From positions 1,364,001 through 1,428,000 of the forward strand of contig NZ_CP125652.1 of NCBI RefSeq assembly GCF_030053135.1: a stretch of DNA of 64,000 nt, in the 5' to 3' direction. Position 1 is the stretch's first letter. Each line of letters begins with the position of its first letter. The notes below the pieces were generated by a model. The model saw nothing but the letters and a program-made list of their open reading frames with translations, made no database searches and was not told the origin of the DNA. Made by a program: the position numbers and the translations under genes. Positions 38,134-54,230 of this stretch are shown here, one piece after another. The DNA is from Rhizobium sp. BT04 (GTDB lineage Bacteria > Pseudomonadota > Alphaproteobacteria > Rhizobiales > Rhizobiaceae).

Positions 38134-38706
38134 TCACATCCCCTGCGCGCCACGGTTCATCGCCGCAATACCAGTGCGGCAGACCTCGATGAGGCCGAGC
38201 GGCTTCATGATCGCCACGAACTGGTCGATCTTCGAAGACTTGCCGGTGATCTCCAGGATGAAGTGGCCGACCGTCGCGTCCACCACCTTGGCATGAAAGG
38301 CGTCGGCAAGGCGCAGCGTCTCGGCGCGCATTTCGCCCTCGCCGATCACCTTGACCAGCGCCACTTCGCGCTCGATCGGACGGTCCTGGCCGAGTTCGCG
38401 GGCCCGCACCGTGAGATCGACGACGCGGTGCACAGGCACGATGCGCTCGAGCTGGGCCTTGATCTGCTCCAGCACGTGTGGCGTGCCGCGGGTGACGATG
38501 GTGATGCGGGAAAGATGCGCCTGGTGCTCGGTCTCGGAAACCGTCAGGCTCTCGATATTGTAGCCGCGCCCGGAAAACAGGCCGATGACCCGGGCAAGAA
38601 CGCCCGGCTCGTTGTCGACGAGAACCGAAAGCGTGTGGCTTTCGACCGCCGTCGTTTCCGGCGAGATGAAATAGGCGGAGCCCGTGGGCTGTAGATGTGC
38701 GTTCAT
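38134..38706 (-). CDS. ilvH: Acetolactate synthase small (regulatory) subunit
   Basis: A 190-residue regulatory subunit that binds valine and stimulates the catalytic IlvI. The N-terminal ACT domain reads SHTLSVLVDNEPGVLARVIG, then LFSGRGYNIESLTV; the C-terminal ACT-like domain spans VALVKVIGEGEMRAETLRLA to VGHFILEITG. A ~30-residue N-terminal extension is typical of alphaproteobacteria. It lies 83 bp downstream of ilvI on the same strand and is likely co-transcribed from the attenuator-controlled promoter. Confidence 0.97.
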   Translation of the reverse strand: MNAHLQPTGSAYFISPETTAVESHTLSVLVDNEPGVLARVIGLFSGRGYNIESLTVSETEHQAHLSRITIVTRGTPHVLEQIKAQLERIVPVHRVVDLTVRARELGQDRPIEREVALVKVIGEGEMRAETLRLADAFHAKVVDATVGHFILEITGKSSKIDQFVAIMKPLGLIEVCRTGIAAMNRGAQGM

Positions 38707-38789: not shown

Positions 38790-40580
38790 TCAAACGAGCG
38801 CGCGGCCCTTGGCGTCAATCGCATTGGCGACAGCTTCATCAGTGGCCTCGTCAGGCAGCAGCATTTCGTTGTGAGCCTTGCCCGAGGGAATCATCGGGAA
38901 GCAGTTGGCGAGATTGGCGACGCGGCAATCGAAAATGACCGGCTTCTTGACCTCGATCATCTCGACGATGGCATCGTCGAGCTCGTCCGGCTTGTCGCAA
39001 CGCAGCCCGACCGCGCCATAGGCTTCCGCCAGCTTGACGAAATCCGGCATCGCCTCAGTATAGGAGTGCGACAGGCGGTTGCCGTGCAGCAACTGCTGCC
39101 ACTGGCGCACCATGCCCATGTACTGGTTGTTCATGATGAAGATCTTGATCGGCGCATCGTACTGGATCGCCGTCGACATTTCCTGGATGCACATCTGGAT
39201 CGAGGCGTCGCCGGCAATATCGATGACGAGACTATCGGGATGGGCAATCTGGACGCCGAGTGCTGCCGGCAGGCCGTAGCCCATCGTGCCGAGGCCGCCC
39301 GAGGTCATCCAGCGGTTCGGCTGTTCGAAGCCGAAGAACTGCGCCGCCCACATCTGGTGCTGCCCGACCTCGGTCGTGATGTAGGTGTCGCGGTCCTTGG
39401 TATGCGCAAACAGCCGTTCCAGCGCATATTGCGGCATGATGACGTCGCTGTTCTTCGTATAGGCGAAGGAGTTGCGCGCCCGCCAGCGGGCGATGTCGCT
39501 CCACCAATCCTCGAGGCGGTTTTTCTCCGGCTTCCTCGGCAGCGCCCGCCACAGGCGAACCATGTCTTCGAGGACATGGCCGACGTCGCCGCGGATGCCG
39601 ATATCGACACGGACGTTCTTGTTGATCGAAGACGGATCGATATCGATGTGGATCTTTTTCGAGTTCGGCGAAAAGGCGTTGAGACGGCCGGTGATGCGGT
39701 CGTCGAAGCGGGCGCCGATGCAGACCATGACGTCGCAGTCATGCATCGCCATGTTGGCCTCGTAGGAGCCGTGCATGCCGAGCATCTTCAGCCAGTTCTT
39801 GCCCGACGCCGGATAGGCGCCGAGGCCCATCAGCGTCGAAGTGATCGGGAAATCGGTGAGCTCGACCAGCTCGCGCAGCAGCTTGGAGGCCTCGGGGCCG
39901 GAATTGACGACACCGCCGCCGGAATAGATGACGGGACGGCGCGCGCTCGCCATCAGCTCGATCGCCGCATGGATCTGGTTGAGGTCGCCCTGGATCTTCG
40001 GCTGGTAGCTCTTCTGGACCGGATAGTCGGCGGGCGGCGTATAGGTGCCGGTCGCAAACTGCACGTCCTTCGGAATATCGACGACGACGGGACCCGGACG
40101 GCCGGACTGGGCGATGCGGAAGGCTTCGTGAATGACGGCGGCGAGTTCGTTGACATCCTTGACCAGCCAGTTGTGCTTGGTGCAGGGCCGGGTGATGCCG
40201 ACCGTATCGCATTCCTGGAAGGCGTCGGAGCCGATCAGCGAGGTCGGAACCTGGCCGGTCAGGCAGACGAGCGGGATCGAATCCATCAGCGCGTCCTGCA
40301 GCGGCGTGACCGCATTGGTGGCGCCCGGACCCGAGGTGACCAGCATGACGCCGACCTTGCCGGTGGAGCGGGCGTAGCCTTCGGCCGCATGGCCTGCCCC
40401 CTGCTCGTGACGGACGAGGATGTGCTTGATGTCGTCCTGCTGGAAGATCTCGTCATAGATCGGCAGGACCGCGCCGCCGGGATAGCCGAAGATATGTTCG
40501 ACGCCATTGTCCTTCAGCGCCTTGAGAACGATCTCCGCTCCTGTCATCCGATTGCCTGCCGCCTGATTGTCCGTGCTCAT
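38790..40580 (-). CDS. ilvI: Acetolactate synthase large (catalytic) subunit
   Basis: A 596-residue thiamine-diphosphate enzyme that makes 2-acetolactate or 2-aceto-2-hydroxybutyrate, the first common step of branched-chain synthesis. Signatures: HIFGYPGGAVLPIYDEIF, VRHEQGAGHAAEGYARSTG (catalytic Glu), and the ThDP motif GDASIQMCIQEMSTAIQYDA with IMNNQYMG. MSTDNQ at 40580 is the likely start; the frame extends 20 codons into the leader region. Upstream are a terminator and an 18-codon ilv leader peptide. Confidence 0.97.
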   Translation of the reverse strand: MSTDNQAAGNRMTGAEIVLKALKDNGVEHIFGYPGGAVLPIYDEIFQQDDIKHILVRHEQGAGHAAEGYARSTGKVGVMLVTSGPGATNAVTPLQDALMDSIPLVCLTGQVPTSLIGSDAFQECDTVGITRPCTKHNWLVKDVNELAAVIHEAFRIAQSGRPGPVVVDIPKDVQFATGTYTPPADYPVQKSYQPKIQGDLNQIHAAIELMASARRPVIYSGGGVVNSGPEASKLLRELVELTDFPITSTLMGLGAYPASGKNWLKMLGMHGSYEANMAMHDCDVMVCIGARFDDRITGRLNAFSPNSKKIHIDIDPSSINKNVRVDIGIRGDVGHVLEDMVRLWRALPRKPEKNRLEDWWSDIARWRARNSFAYTKNSDVIMPQYALERLFAHTKDRDTYITTEVGQHQMWAAQFFGFEQPNRWMTSGGLGTMGYGLPAALGVQIAHPDSLVIDIAGDASIQMCIQEMSTAIQYDAPIKIFIMNNQYMGMVRQWQQLLHGNRLSHSYTEAMPDFVKLAEAYGAVGLRCDKPDELDDAIVEMIEVKKPVIFDCRVANLANCFPMIPSGKAHNEMLLPDEATDEAVANAIDAKGRALV

Positions 40581-40640
40581 CTGTCTGTTCCGTTTGATGC
40601 TGGGATTGCGTTTGTGGCCGGAAGCCCTGTTTTCGGGCAT

Positions 40641-40663
40641 AAAAAAAGGCCCCGGAGGAGCCT
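40641..40663 (-). terminator. Attenuator terminator of ilvIH
   Basis: On the minus strand, AGGCTCC-TCC-GGGGCCT (one G-U pair) is followed by seven T (40641-40647). It lies after the leader peptide and about 60 bp before the ilvI start, as an attenuator terminator should. Confidence 0.8.
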
Positions 40664-40670
40664 GTCATCT

Positions 40671-40720
40671 AGCGCATGGGTGGCTATCGCCGGATGGTTA
40701 CACCATCCTGCCCATGCGCT
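40671..40720 (-). promoter_or_regulatory. ilvIH leader stem (10-bp perfect inverted repeat)
   Basis: AGCGCATGGG (minus 40720-40711) pairs perfectly with CCCATGCGCT (40680-40671), enclosing a second hairpin GGATGG/CCATCC that holds the leader stop codon. A ribosome stalled at the Leu-Ile-Val-Val codons would occupy the 5-prime arm, which fits an attenuation switch. The full set of alternative folds was not computed. Confidence 0.65.
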
Positions 40721-40754
40721 TTCCCACCACGATAAGAGCCGTTGCGATTTTCAT
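40698..40754 (-). CDS. ilv leader peptide (18 aa), attenuator of ilvIH
   Basis: A minus-strand mini-ORF reading MKIATALIVVGKRMGRMV then TAA. Codons 6-10 are Ala-Leu-Ile-Val-Val, the products of the pathway, as in enteric ilv leaders. It is too short for routine gene finding. No Shine-Dalgarno is present. Instead a -35/-10 pair (TTGACG-N17-TATCAC, 40791-40763) ends 8 bp before the ATG, so the transcript would begin at or next to the A of AUG, as known for the leaderless Sinorhizobium trp leader. It is followed by a 10-bp stem and a rho-independent terminator before ilvI. Confidence 0.85.
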   Translation of the reverse strand: MKIATALIVVGKRMGRMV

Positions 40755-40762
40755 GGTCGGAA

Positions 40763-40791
40763 GTGATAGACAGAAAATTTCGCAGCGTCAA
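40763..40791 (-). promoter_or_regulatory. Promoter of the ilvIH leader
   Basis: TTGACG (minus, 40791-40786), a 17-bp spacer, then TATCAC (40768-40763): near-consensus sigma-70 spacing. Transcription would start at about 40754-40757, that is at the leader AUG. Confidence 0.75.
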
Positions 40792-40903: not shown

Positions 40904-42928
40904 TTGCTCAACAACGACTCGCGCACGTCTGGCAAGGCAGGCGAGCATGATCGCCGCGATGGCCATGCGCCGGGGAATCGCTTTCTCGGCCGCGTCGTTG
41001 CATGCAGCGGCTCCAGGGCGACGATTGCCGCCGTCGCCGAACAGGGCGGCACCGATCTCACCGAACTCTGGTCCGTCGGCCGGCTGATTTCGATCAGCGT
41101 CGGCCGCAATCGCGTCGTCGCCCTCGTCTATCAGATGAACACCGGCAGCCATGCCTGGGGCGAAGGCGAGGATAATACGTTCAGGATCGAGACCGAGCTT
41201 CTCGGCGAAGTCCGCGTCGATGAGGACGGCACCGAGGAATTCTCGACCGGCATCTCACGCTATCCCTATCTCGGCGCCATCGCCCACCGCATTCGCGCCG
41301 CCGACCTGATCCGCATCTACGATGCCGGAGAGGGCACGACAGCCGTAATCGGCAAGCTGACGCAGGACGAAAGCATCGATGCGGCGATCCATATCCCCTC
41401 GATGCTCTCCAAGCATTTCGCCGTCGTCGGTTCGACCGGCGTCGGCAAGTCGACGGCCGTGTCGCTGCTGCTGCACAAGGCGATCGCGGCGAACCCGAAG
41501 CTGCGCGTGCTGATCCTCGATCCGCACAACGAATTCGCCGCTGCCTTTCCCAAGCATGCCGTCACCATCGACACGGATACGCTCGACCTGCCCTTCTGGT
41601 TGATGCGGCTGGAGGAATTTGCCGAGGTCGTCTTCCGCGGCCGCCCACCGGTGCCCGAAGAACTCGACATGCTGCGTGATATCCTGCCGGAGGCCAAGCG
41701 CGCCTTCCGCGGCAGCGACAATTCGCTGGTGCGCCGCACGACGGAAAAGAGCTCGATCACTGCCGATACGCCGGTTCCCTACCGCATGGCCGATCTGCTG
41801 GCGCTGATCGACGAGCGCATCGGCCGCCTGGAAGGCCGCTCGGAAAAGCCCTTCCTGCGATCGCTGAAGATGCGCCTCATCGCCGCGATCAATGATCCGC
41901 GCTATCACTTCATGTTCTCCAACAACACGATCAGCGACACGATCACCGAAACCATCGCGCAGATCTTCCGCATCCCCGGCGACGGCAGGCCGATCTGCAC
42001 CTTCCAGCTTGCCGGCATTCCCTCCGAGGTCGTCAATTCGGTCGCCTCAGTGCTCTGCCGCATGGCCTTCGAAGTGGCGCTGTGGAGCGACGGCGCCATC
42101 CACATGCTGGTCGTCTGCGAGGAAGCTCACCGCTACATCCCCTCCGATCCGAGCCTCGGCTTCGTGCCGACACGCCAGGCAATCGCCCGCATCGCCAAGG
42201 AGGGCCGCAAATACGGCGTCTCGCTCGGCATCATCACGCAACGGCCGGGTGAGCTCGACCAGACGATCCTGTCGCAGTGTTCGACGCTGTTTGCCATGCG
42301 CCTTGCCAATGACCGCGACCAGGAAATCATCCGCTCGGCCATCCCGAATTCGTCGATCTCGACGACGAGCTTCATCTCCTCGATCGGCAACGGCGAGGCG
42401 ATCGCTTTCGGCGAGGCGATCAGCGTGCCGATGCGCATGCGCTTTTCCCGCGTCGACGAAAACCTGCTGCCGAAGGCGAGCAGCGCCAATAACAAACACA
42501 GCGAGGAAGATCCGGATACGGTCGACCTGCGCAAGATCGTCACCCGCATGCGGGCGGTAACCGTCGGACCAGACATCTCGAATTTCCAGCAGAGCTACGC
42601 GTCGTCCGTCACAAGCTCCGACGAGGCTGATGCCGCCGACGAGGATCTGGACGCCAAGCCCTACGCGCCGCCTGCACCGTCGTCCGCGTCGCTCGAATCC
42701 TACCGGCGCGAACTGCTGCCGCAGACACCGCGGCTGGATCCCGGCGTCTCCCCCTCGATCGATCCCCGGTTGGATGCGCTGCGCCGCGAGATGCGCCGCG
42801 AGGAACCGGTCTTTCCCCGACCGGCATCGCCGACGGACCAGCCTGCGATCACCCGCCGCGAGCCCGGCACGTCGCTGCGCGAAAGCATCCTGAAAAAACC
42901 GCTGAGCAGCCTCTATAACAAGGATTGA
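40904..42928 (+). CDS. HerA/DUF87-type ATPase
   Basis: A 674-residue FtsK/HerA-superfamily ATPase. The N-terminal ~130 residues form a HAS-barrel-like domain (RFLGRVVACSGSRATIAAVA). Walker A is GSTGVGKSTAVSLLL at 176-190, followed by VLILDPHNEFAAAF; Walker B is in MLVVCEEAHRYIPSDP; sensor/arginine regions follow (ITQRPGELDQTILSQCSTLF). The C-terminal ~120 residues are low-complexity and probably disordered. HerA works with nuclease NurA in archaeal end resection; no NurA, Sir2 or nuclease partner is adjacent here. TTG 40904 has GGAG upstream. Confidence 0.9.
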   Translation: MLNNDSRTSGKAGEHDRRDGHAPGNRFLGRVVACSGSRATIAAVAEQGGTDLTELWSVGRLISISVGRNRVVALVYQMNTGSHAWGEGEDNTFRIETELLGEVRVDEDGTEEFSTGISRYPYLGAIAHRIRAADLIRIYDAGEGTTAVIGKLTQDESIDAAIHIPSMLSKHFAVVGSTGVGKSTAVSLLLHKAIAANPKLRVLILDPHNEFAAAFPKHAVTIDTDTLDLPFWLMRLEEFAEVVFRGRPPVPEELDMLRDILPEAKRAFRGSDNSLVRRTTEKSSITADTPVPYRMADLLALIDERIGRLEGRSEKPFLRSLKMRLIAAINDPRYHFMFSNNTISDTITETIAQIFRIPGDGRPICTFQLAGIPSEVVNSVASVLCRMAFEVALWSDGAIHMLVVCEEAHRYIPSDPSLGFVPTRQAIARIAKEGRKYGVSLGIITQRPGELDQTILSQCSTLFAMRLANDRDQEIIRSAIPNSSISTTSFISSIGNGEAIAFGEAISVPMRMRFSRVDENLLPKASSANNKHSEEDPDTVDLRKIVTRMRAVTVGPDISNFQQSYASSVTSSDEADAADEDLDAKPYAPPAPSSASLESYRRELLPQTPRLDPGVSPSIDPRLDALRREMRREEPVFPRPASPTDQPAITRREPGTSLRESILKKPLSSLYNKD

Positions 42929-43860: not shown

Positions 43861-44475
43861 TCAATGTGAGAACAGCAAGCGCGATCCGGCGCCAGCGAAG
43901 AAGACGGCGAGGCTTCCCTCGATCCACCGCCGCGCACGGGCGTAGCCGCGCACCATCGGGGCCGTCGAGAAGAGCACGGCATAGCCGGCAAATATCGAGA
44001 TCCCGAGAAGCACGCAGCCGCCGAACGCCGTGACCGCCATTTCGGGCGAAGCGCCGGGCTTGAGGCCGAGCGACATGATCGCGACCCAGGCCAGAACCGC
44101 CTTCGGGTTGCCGAGATGCATCAGAATACCGCGACGATAGAGCGCGCCGAGTTGCGCGGCAGGCCGGACGACCTCACCTGCCGGCCCGTCCGGGGCGGTT
44201 GCCGAGCGGGCCGCCCTCCAGGCGAGCCAGAGGAGGTAAAGCCCGCCTGCGACTTTGAGGAACAGCAGCGCATGGGCATAGCGGACCAGGAGTGTGGAAA
44301 TGCCGGTGACAGCGACCAGCCCCCAGCATGTCGACATCGTTATGACCCCGGCAGCAAGGACGAGCGCCGGTCGACGCCCTTGTCGCATCGCCACGTTCAT
44401 GATCGCCATATTGCTTGGTCCGGGACTGCCTGCAGCGATTGCGTAGGCGATATAGACGACAAGAAGATCCTGCAT
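43861..44475 (-). CDS. LysE/RhtB-family amino acid exporter
   Basis: A 204-residue exporter with about six membrane segments, starting MQDLLVVYIAYAIAAGSPGP. It has SNMAIMNVAMRQGRRPALVL and MHLGNPKAVLAWVAIMSLGL. The frame stays open upstream through a poly-serine run encoded by a hexanucleotide repeat, but similarity begins at ATG 44475. It is divergent from a MocR regulator, the usual activator type for such exporters, and precedes a DHDPS-family gene. Substrate unknown. Confidence 0.92.
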   Translation of the reverse strand: MQDLLVVYIAYAIAAGSPGPSNMAIMNVAMRQGRRPALVLAAGVITMSTCWGLVAVTGISTLLVRYAHALLFLKVAGGLYLLWLAWRAARSATAPDGPAGEVVRPAAQLGALYRRGILMHLGNPKAVLAWVAIMSLGLKPGASPEMAVTAFGGCVLLGISIFAGYAVLFSTAPMVRGYARARRWIEGSLAVFFAGAGSRLLFSH

Positions 44476-44517
44476 TTGCGTGTTTCCAAAAGTTTGCGCC
44501 CGCGCACGGCACGATCC

Positions 44518-44571
44518 CGAAGACGAAGACGAAGACGAAGACGAAGACGAAGACGAAGACGAAGACGAAGA
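44518..44571. repeat. Hexanucleotide tandem repeat, nine copies of CGAAGA
   Basis: Fifty-four bases are exactly nine units of CGAAGA, located between the lysE start (44475) and the mocR start (44668). Copy-number slippage would change the spacing of the divergent promoters in 6-bp steps without altering any protein. Confidence 0.95.
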
Positions 44572-44667
44572 ATGCGCCATCTGGAAGCCGCCGATCCACT
44601 TCCTTTTCCTCGAAAATTGGCCCATCATGAAGCGCCATTTTGAAGAATTTCAATAGACCATTTTGCG

Positions 44668-53748: not shown

Positions 53749-53897
53749 GTCGCGCTGATTCCGTTTCGGCTAATTTAAGCCTCCAGCCACAGGAAACCAA
53801 TCACCGGCAGGCATTTTCCCAATGTTTCTGATGGTGCGCATAACGCTTTTATGACGTTTGCCCTTTCCTTGGGCTGAGGAAACCACTATATCAGCCT

Positions 53898-54230
53898 TGC
53901 CGGCTTTCGGGCCGGCTATGGCGATAAATGAGCGGTGTAATAAACCTATTGGACCCGGGGGCGGTACCCGGCGCCTCCACCAAAAACCGGCGGCCTTAAA
54001 GGCCGGCTTTTGATGGGGGCGAAACAGGATCGACAAGGGTGTAAAGATCGTCTTTTTGCTCGGCATTGTACCGCCGTTATCGGGCTAAAATTGTAGTTGC
54101 AAACGACAACTATGCGGAAGCTCGTCTCGCTGCTTAATCGCGGTGTGACACTTCAATCAAAGTCCTAGTGGTTCGCACCTCTAGGCGGGGTCCGAAGGCA
54201 CCTGGCAACAGAAGCCTTCACCTTCTCCCT
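53898..54230 (+). ncRNA. ssrA: Transfer-messenger RNA, circularly permuted two-piece form
   Basis: tmRNA rescues stalled ribosomes. The acceptor piece comes first (about 53898-53982) with the T-arm (GGACCCGGGGGCGGTACCCG) and GCCTCC-A-CCA at its 3-prime end. A removed spacer with a hairpin (53985-54014) follows, then the coding piece starting GGGGGCGAAACAGGATCGAC at 54015. Acceptor-stem pairing GGGGGC/GCCTCC links the two pieces with one G-U. The tag frame at 54099-54137 encodes ANDNYAEARLAA-stop. This permuted layout is characteristic of alphaproteobacteria. The outer ends (53898 and 54230) are approximate. A TATATC at 53887 may be the -10 box. Confidence 0.93.

Follow-up and report, generated by a model that had tools for sequence, protein, structure and literature searches.

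The ilvIH operon of Rhizobium sp. BT04 is preceded by a short RNA leader which probably acts as a translation-sensing attenuator with a leaderless reading frame, and a duplicated cassette would place an ilvI paralogue (ilvI2) or an MFS transporter gene under the same sensor. The leader is located in a stretch of 64,000 nucleotides (the window), and its RNA belongs to a known family, Atu_C8 (RF02502), filed in Rfam as a sRNA of Rhizobiales. The Rfam covariance model matched it at full length (model positions 1-122 of 122; 40631..40752, minus strand) with 121.4 bits (gathering score 50), its first position falling on the G of the leader's AUG. The Rfam line for this family reads sRNA and gives no further function; its source is said to be an Agrobacterium sRNA paper of 2012. 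In our analysis, Atu_C8 holds a conserved leader ORF with control codons in front of ilvI, ilvI paralogues and an MFS gene.

A sequence-only reading of the window had proposed an 18-codon ORF, a 10-bp stem, a terminator and a promoter, and all these parts were confirmed on the minus strand, between ilvI and the divergent ORF 40904-42928 of the window's ORF listing. The -35 element TTGACG (40786..40791), read from the sequence, is separated by a 17-nt spacer from the -10 element TATCAC (40763..40768), which ends 8 nt 5′ of the ATG. The leader-peptide ORF MKIATALIVVGKRMGRMV, presumably leaderless, has 18 codons followed by TAA (40698..40754; ATG at 40754, TAA at 40700-40698) and contains the control codons Leu-Ile-Val-Val (CTT ATC GTG GTG, 40725..40736). 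The coding 5′ arm of stem P1 (40711..40720, K-R-M-G) pairs perfectly over 10 bp with a non-coding 3′ arm (40671..40680), and a 7-bp stop-codon hairpin (40692..40708) lies inside P1 with the stop at its loop. The intrinsic terminator, a GC stem with seven T, occupies 40641..40663 (hairpin 40663-40647, T run 40647-40641). On the same strand we found ilvI, the presumed regulated gene, which encodes the acetolactate synthase large subunit (38790..40580; NF006581, 1236.2 bits, cut-off 974), and ilvH, encoding the small subunit (38134..38706; NF008864, 221.9 bits, cut-off 119). The longest ORF of ilvI starts at 40640, immediately 3′ of the T run. In the protein read from 40580, however, profile positions 3-595 of 595 of NF006581 are aligned from residue 4 on, which makes 40580 the likelier start; the frame upstream of it is likewise open in several relatives of the same genus.

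Elsewhere, the window contains an alphaproteobacterial permuted tmRNA gene (53860-54228) with the tag ANDNYAEARLAA, and on the minus strand an ORF (43861-44628) with a run of about 18 Ser near the N-terminus, a simple repeat, in a protein that we take to be LysE-like.

Atu_C8 was present in 146 of the 151 genomes sampled across the bacterial family, so the leader is not a chance occurrence. The five genomes lacking it have listed sizes of 1.2 to 2.0 Mb. Across the order it was recovered from 100 of 199 sampled genomes, 28 of them above the Rfam cut-off; both samples were searched with stricter filters, at which weak matches are lost. None was found in 14 control genomes. In the 131 loci that we fetched, a selection leaning to better-scoring matches, the downstream gene was ilvI or an ilvI paralogue in 117 cases; the remaining 14 had an MFS gene instead. 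The 111 same-family loci comprise L032-L091, i.e. 60 mostly better-scoring loci out of the 146 matching genomes, from 51 other genera (nine genera twice), and a remainder mostly from the same genus. The 20 loci from other families are among the best matches of the order-wide search. Conservation of the ORF beyond this genome, named by the sequence-only reading as a check on its proposal, is evident in the same-family leaders from 51 genera, which keep it. One Sinorhizobium meliloti record of 3.72 Mb carrying ilvI, ilvN and the leader (L231, CP090106.1) is labelled pSymB and may be a mislabelled chromosome.

The position of the promoter is strikingly constant. TTGA[CT] begins 35-38 nt 5′ of the AUG in all 60 loci L032-L091, and control windows of equal width placed 50-109 nt upstream contained it in 0 to 2 of 60 (mean 0.7). 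In 110 of the 111 same-family loci the -35 element ends 29-32 nt from the AUG; for the single exception (L120), our script chose an extra upstream ATG. In the -10 element, T occupies position 1 in 51 of the 60 loci and A occupies position 2 in 52, and the sequence between promoter and AUG varies while the spacing stays fixed. Shine-Dalgarno-like 4-mers were found in just five of the 111 same-family loci, the window's leader not being among them. Because the spacing is fixed in 60/60 loci of 51 genera, transcription of the leader is very likely leaderless, and the leaderless geometry proposed by the sequence-only reading fits them all.

Outside the family the situation was less uniform. An ORF was found in 17 of the 20 other-family loci; of these 17 leaders, five show the same -35/AUG geometry (one of them the MFS copy of G309), 12 yielded no such -35 element and seven contain a Shine-Dalgarno-like 4-mer. 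Leaderlessness is therefore not universal in the order; the geometry appears near-universal in the sample of the family and mixed in the order.

At least four consecutive Ile/Leu/Val residues were present in 59/59 leaders (L032-L090), with the order of Leu-Ile and Ile-Leu varying and the residue class constant; the Leu-Ile-Val-Val stretch, the loss of which would have counted against a leader peptide of this kind, is thus conserved as a class. The codons chosen for these residues differ greatly from those of the seven ORFs of this window, a comparison set that is small and from one species, although the contrast is large: Val is encoded by GTA in 44 % of cases in leaders vs 2 % in window ORFs and by GTC in 1 % vs 65 %, Ile by ATT in 75 % vs 13 %, and Leu by CTG in 0 % vs 45 %. 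Such a preference for uncommon synonymous codons fits a translation-sensing leader and the needs of a sensor of tRNA charging.

The 115-nt RNA was predicted to fold with -48.5 kcal/mol, and none of 200 shuffled sequences was as good (-36.4 +/- 3.6). In an alignment of 66 leaders (67 listed, L090 omitted) the three helices were paired in 97.4 % of cells, compared to 93.7 % for shuffles and 37-50 % when the helices were slid by up to three columns. By element, 99.7 % of cells were paired in P1 (65 distinct sequences), 95.4 % in the stop-codon hairpin and 96.4 % in the terminator, which bears out the stem and the terminator of the earlier reading. Four of the seven pairs of the stop-codon hairpin have changes on both sides. 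P1 is nearly invariant within the family, but in other families both its arms consist of different letters and still pair (e.g. GCGCACCACC with GGUGGUGCGC). As this re-pairing occurs despite the coding function of the 5′ arm, P1 is a real RNA element.

In enteric attenuators, the stalled ribosome allows a second helix to capture the 5′ arm of the terminator. We measured the capacity for such a helix as the folding gain of the ribosome-free RNA once the terminator 5′ arm is added, using single-strand structure predictions. No competing antiterminator was found in 66 ilv leaders (mean gain -1.69 +/- 0.99 kcal/mol, best -4.0). The same calculation gave -10.5 kcal/mol for E. coli trpL, -8.4 for leuL and -6.8 or -10.9 for ivbL, and for trpL from the same genome as the window -12.6 and -12.4 at two of three stall positions, with -4.2 at the remaining one. 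When the start of the free RNA was shifted over ten positions, the mean gains were -0.1 to -1.8 with a single best of -6.4, and taking the best of four stall positions on 60 loci gave a mean of -2.35 with a single extreme value of -16.7. Pairing to the terminator arm was weaker than in shuffles (-6.7 vs -8.5). An antiterminator selected by eye, CCGGCGAUAGCC with GGCUCCUCCGG, was rejected, as its AGCC varies and shuffled sequences pair more strongly. Since the gain is small and the arm pairing stays below that of shuffles, P1 and the terminator can, according to these predictions, coexist in the ilv leader, and secondary structure alone would allow the terminator to form whether the cell is starved or fed or the leader is left untranslated. 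Attenuation of ilvIH in the enteric manner, as put forward by the sequence-only reading, is not supported in that form: the run of codons for the end product (59/59 leaders) and the intrinsic terminator are there, but a mutually exclusive antiterminator was not found by a calculation that recovers it in positive controls.

Three other explanations of the leader at ilvI have to be weighed. In a variant of the main one, the leader would be a classical four-segment attenuator with an antiterminator that we missed because it depends on a bulged helix, a pseudoknot, a tertiary contact or help from a protein. In several leaders of other families, a weak, bulged helix does recur between the 3′ arm of P1 and the 5′ arm of the terminator, down to -7.3 as the best of four stall positions. 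In the same-family leaders just a short remnant of it is left, with a small gain, the terminator arm pairs less well than in shuffles, and our method did detect strong antiterminators in four controls, if not at every stall position, so we consider this variant rather unlikely. We give somewhat less credit to the idea that the locus is a constitutively terminated sRNA and peptide gene, in which a fixed share of transcripts reads through and the RNA or peptide acts in trans like rnTrpL/peTrpL. The failure to find an antiterminator and the filing of Atu_C8 as sRNA in Rfam would agree with it, as would S. meliloti trpL, the transcription of which is reported to be largely tryptophan-independent, with trans-acting RNA and peptide (PMC7298713). 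However, the uncommon Ile/Leu/Val codon run in every one of the 59 leaders finds its simplest explanation in a role for translation speed, and ilvI or its paralogue is downstream in 117/131 loci. Finally, the transcript could begin further upstream and the ORF be translated from a normal leader, which seems very improbable given the promoter spacing fixed over a variable intervening sequence in 51 genera, the scarcity of Shine-Dalgarno-like 4-mers (5/111) and the first position of the Rfam model, which is the G of the AUG. An attenuator that senses translation from a 5′ AUG remains our preferred explanation.

Several known systems resemble the Atu_C8 leader. Enteric ilv operons are controlled by leader-peptide attenuation, and enteric ivbL and leuL share with the leader a peptide rich in branched-chain residues and a terminator before a biosynthetic gene. 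Unlike them, the ilvI leader showed no antiterminator in the same calculation, has no Shine-Dalgarno and is 18 codons long vs 32 and 28. The trpL of its own genome, in contrast, has a strong classical antiterminator by calculation. This trp leader (L227, MIKSLNIAVWWWAR, C6:1706920-1707034, minus strand) has no Shine-Dalgarno and a -10-like TAACAAT near the ATG. The trp attenuator of S. meliloti is reported to be leaderless, with its RNA (rnTrpL) and peptide (peTrpL) acting in trans (PMC7298713, PMC10117765). The common features with Atu_C8 are a leaderless ORF at the 5′ end of the RNA, a terminated RNA known as a sRNA and a biosynthesis gene downstream. There, peTrpL is reportedly tied to efflux-pump control in trans (smeAB, multidrug efflux), whereas the link between Atu_C8 and the MFS gene is in cis. 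For Caulobacter ilvL, a leader ORF and attenuation were proposed for ilvIH (PMC4117421); it is alike in having a leader ORF before an alphaproteobacterial acetolactate synthase operon. Our literature search, with most subscription papers outside it, found no report of leaderless ilvI leaders in rhizobia, nor of Atu_C8 as a leaderless branched-chain leader, of the absence of its antiterminator or of its reuse before an MFS gene.

A second Atu_C8 copy is present in this genome, 168 kb away, with its own TTGACG promoter and a leaderless ORF MKIAMVLAVVIGRMGRVV before an ilvI paralogue. Neither the Rfam family nor these further copies, in this genome and before MFS genes of relatives, figure in the sequence-only reading. 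Two copies were found in 27 of 37 genomes of the genus, and the promoter travels with the second copies. Nine of these 27 second copies (this genome included) precede an ilvI paralogue and 18 precede one family of MFS transporters; none of the 37 genomes has copies before both. This mutual exclusion, counted in one genus, may follow its phylogeny. Thirteen second copies that seemed to be orphans with no gene behind them, and thus pure trans RNAs, turned out to have the same MFS gene behind each. A single syntenic origin was rejected too, as the genes on either side of the second copies are not the same from clade to clade. The leader tree resolves little, with good support for 15 of its 56 inner branches.

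We also considered ilvI2 as a dead gene and rejected this, because its reading frames remain open and six pairs gave dN/dS values of 0.17-0.38, compared to 0.00-0.11 for ilvI in the same pairs; ilvI2 thus appears to be relaxed, not dead. The leader-bearing paralogues examined were L145 (this genome), L125, L146, L147, L151 and L208-L211. The first motif is changed from GG to GA in 9/9 and the FDDR motif is altered in 7/9, and a lid segment with a conserved QW is shortened in five of the eight sequences covering it. We assume, from plant numbering, that the changed positions line the inhibitor site and the lid of acetolactate synthase. One leader-bearing ilvI homologue (L217, G122:C22) aligned only at residues 5-195 and 350-556, and so looks as though it lacks an internal segment of about 155 residues; the same genome has also a full ilvI with leader.

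The association with the MFS gene is tight. In the genus, the MFS orthologues with at least 57 % identity number 18, and they are the very 18 that adjoin a copy; MFS proteins at 47 % identity or less in three genomes (L219-L221) had no leader in the upstream DNA. Genome G309, from another family, likewise has the leader in front of an MFS gene, which shares 49 % identity with the reference. In G012:C5 (L144, L223) the MFS gene that follows the leader was scored with one in-frame TAG. Scanning a second collection with the MFS protein gave 56 loci, 47 of which have the leader upstream; the query was a 450-aa frame whose first 35 residues, and with them one or more of its six search peptides, fall in the leader-spacer region, whereas searches with the proper 415-aa protein are free of this bias. 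All but one of the 48 rhizobial loci in this collection carry the leader, the other being L184, where the contig begins within the gene; the nhmmer leader profile was built from leaders including the MFS copies of this genus. The eight other loci with no Atu_C8 leader upstream are non-rhizobial (two Planobispora, Streptomyces, Nocardiopsis, Glycomyces, Actinoplanes, Rhodobacteraceae and an Acidobacteriaceae MAG). On seven loci the Rfam model agreed, being positive for L152, L172, L195 and L148 (G309) and negative for L196, L199 and L202. Carriers of the leader before the MFS gene include Rhizobium tropici, R. leucaenae, R. lusitanum, R. freirei, R. mongolense, R. aethiopicum, R. sullae, R. rhizogenes, Mesorhizobium norvegicum, M. 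caraganae and Phyllobacterium pellucidum. Plasmid pRetIE4771d of R. etli IE4771 also has a copy, which is unannotated and precedes a gene with the annotation MFS transporter. The tree groups its five Mesorhizobium MFS leaders with leaders of this genus in one clade (support 98/96), and it is a guess that leader and gene moved together. Ten of the 13 aligned MFS leaders (L154, L161, L171, L174, L175, L180, L182, L187, L191 and L198) contain, 3′ of the terminator, a stretch with CGTCAG that could pair with CTGACGGGG in the terminator loop and 3′ arm; it is missing in L148 and L189 and reads CGTCAA in L195.

The best NCBIfam match of the transporter is the Bcr/CflA efflux family (TIGR00710, cut-off 200.9), with 176-184 bits for four of the five proteins and 216.7 for that of G309. 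Export of branched-chain amino acids would make little sense behind a leader opened by starvation, and export of a cause of the starvation, or of a by-product, would fit better. The nine neighbour proteins scanned at six actinobacterial MFS relatives do not point to branched-chain synthesis, so these relatives lend no support to export of a poison. For the second copies it is conceivable, if in our judgement doubtful, that the leader is a convenient promoter-terminator block with no sensing before the MFS gene. That second copies bring their own promoter speaks for this, but the aligned MFS copies keep control codons, stem and terminator (e.g. MKIAMVLVVVIGRMGRMV), and the leader is retained in 18/18 congeneric MFS orthologues.

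For the translation-sensing attenuator that we favour, we propose the following order of events. Judging from the fixed geometry, the RNA of the ilvIH 5′ leader would start at the AUG or within a nucleotide or two of it, and a 70S ribosome would start on this 5′ AUG with no Shine-Dalgarno. The speed of the ribosome over the Leu-Ile-Val-Val codons would report the charging of branched-chain tRNAs and set the readthrough of the terminator into ilvIH. Otherwise transcription would stop in the T run and release a compact Atu_C8 RNA of about 114 nt, which could also be a mini-mRNA for the peptide. For the step from stalled ribosome to readthrough, a competing antiterminator found no support. The cassette, promoter included, has been duplicated to a place before the ilvI paralogue or the MFS gene in this genus, and is found before the MFS gene in Mesorhizobium and Phyllobacterium; the duplicate would presumably put either gene under the same sensor.

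If this is right, a catalogued sRNA family gains a defined job, and a leaderless attenuator with a non-textbook switch would exist beside a textbook trp attenuator in the same genome. The reuse of a whole biosynthetic leader in cis before a transporter would be the fixed-wiring counterpart of the reported link that the trp peptide makes to efflux in trans. A bolder reading, which we hold as tentative and on balance unlikely, is that of a portable starvation sensor, leaderless and with no textbook antiterminator, that works by non-2:3 readthrough, was copied as a unit with its promoter, may have passed from one rhizobium to another, and has two alternative outputs, a diverged second acetolactate synthase or an MFS exporter. 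Were it true, any poison that reduces the charging of Leu-, Ile- or Val-tRNA, such as inhibitors of acetolactate synthase or of Leu/Ile/Val-tRNA synthetases, would switch on a replacement target or efflux.
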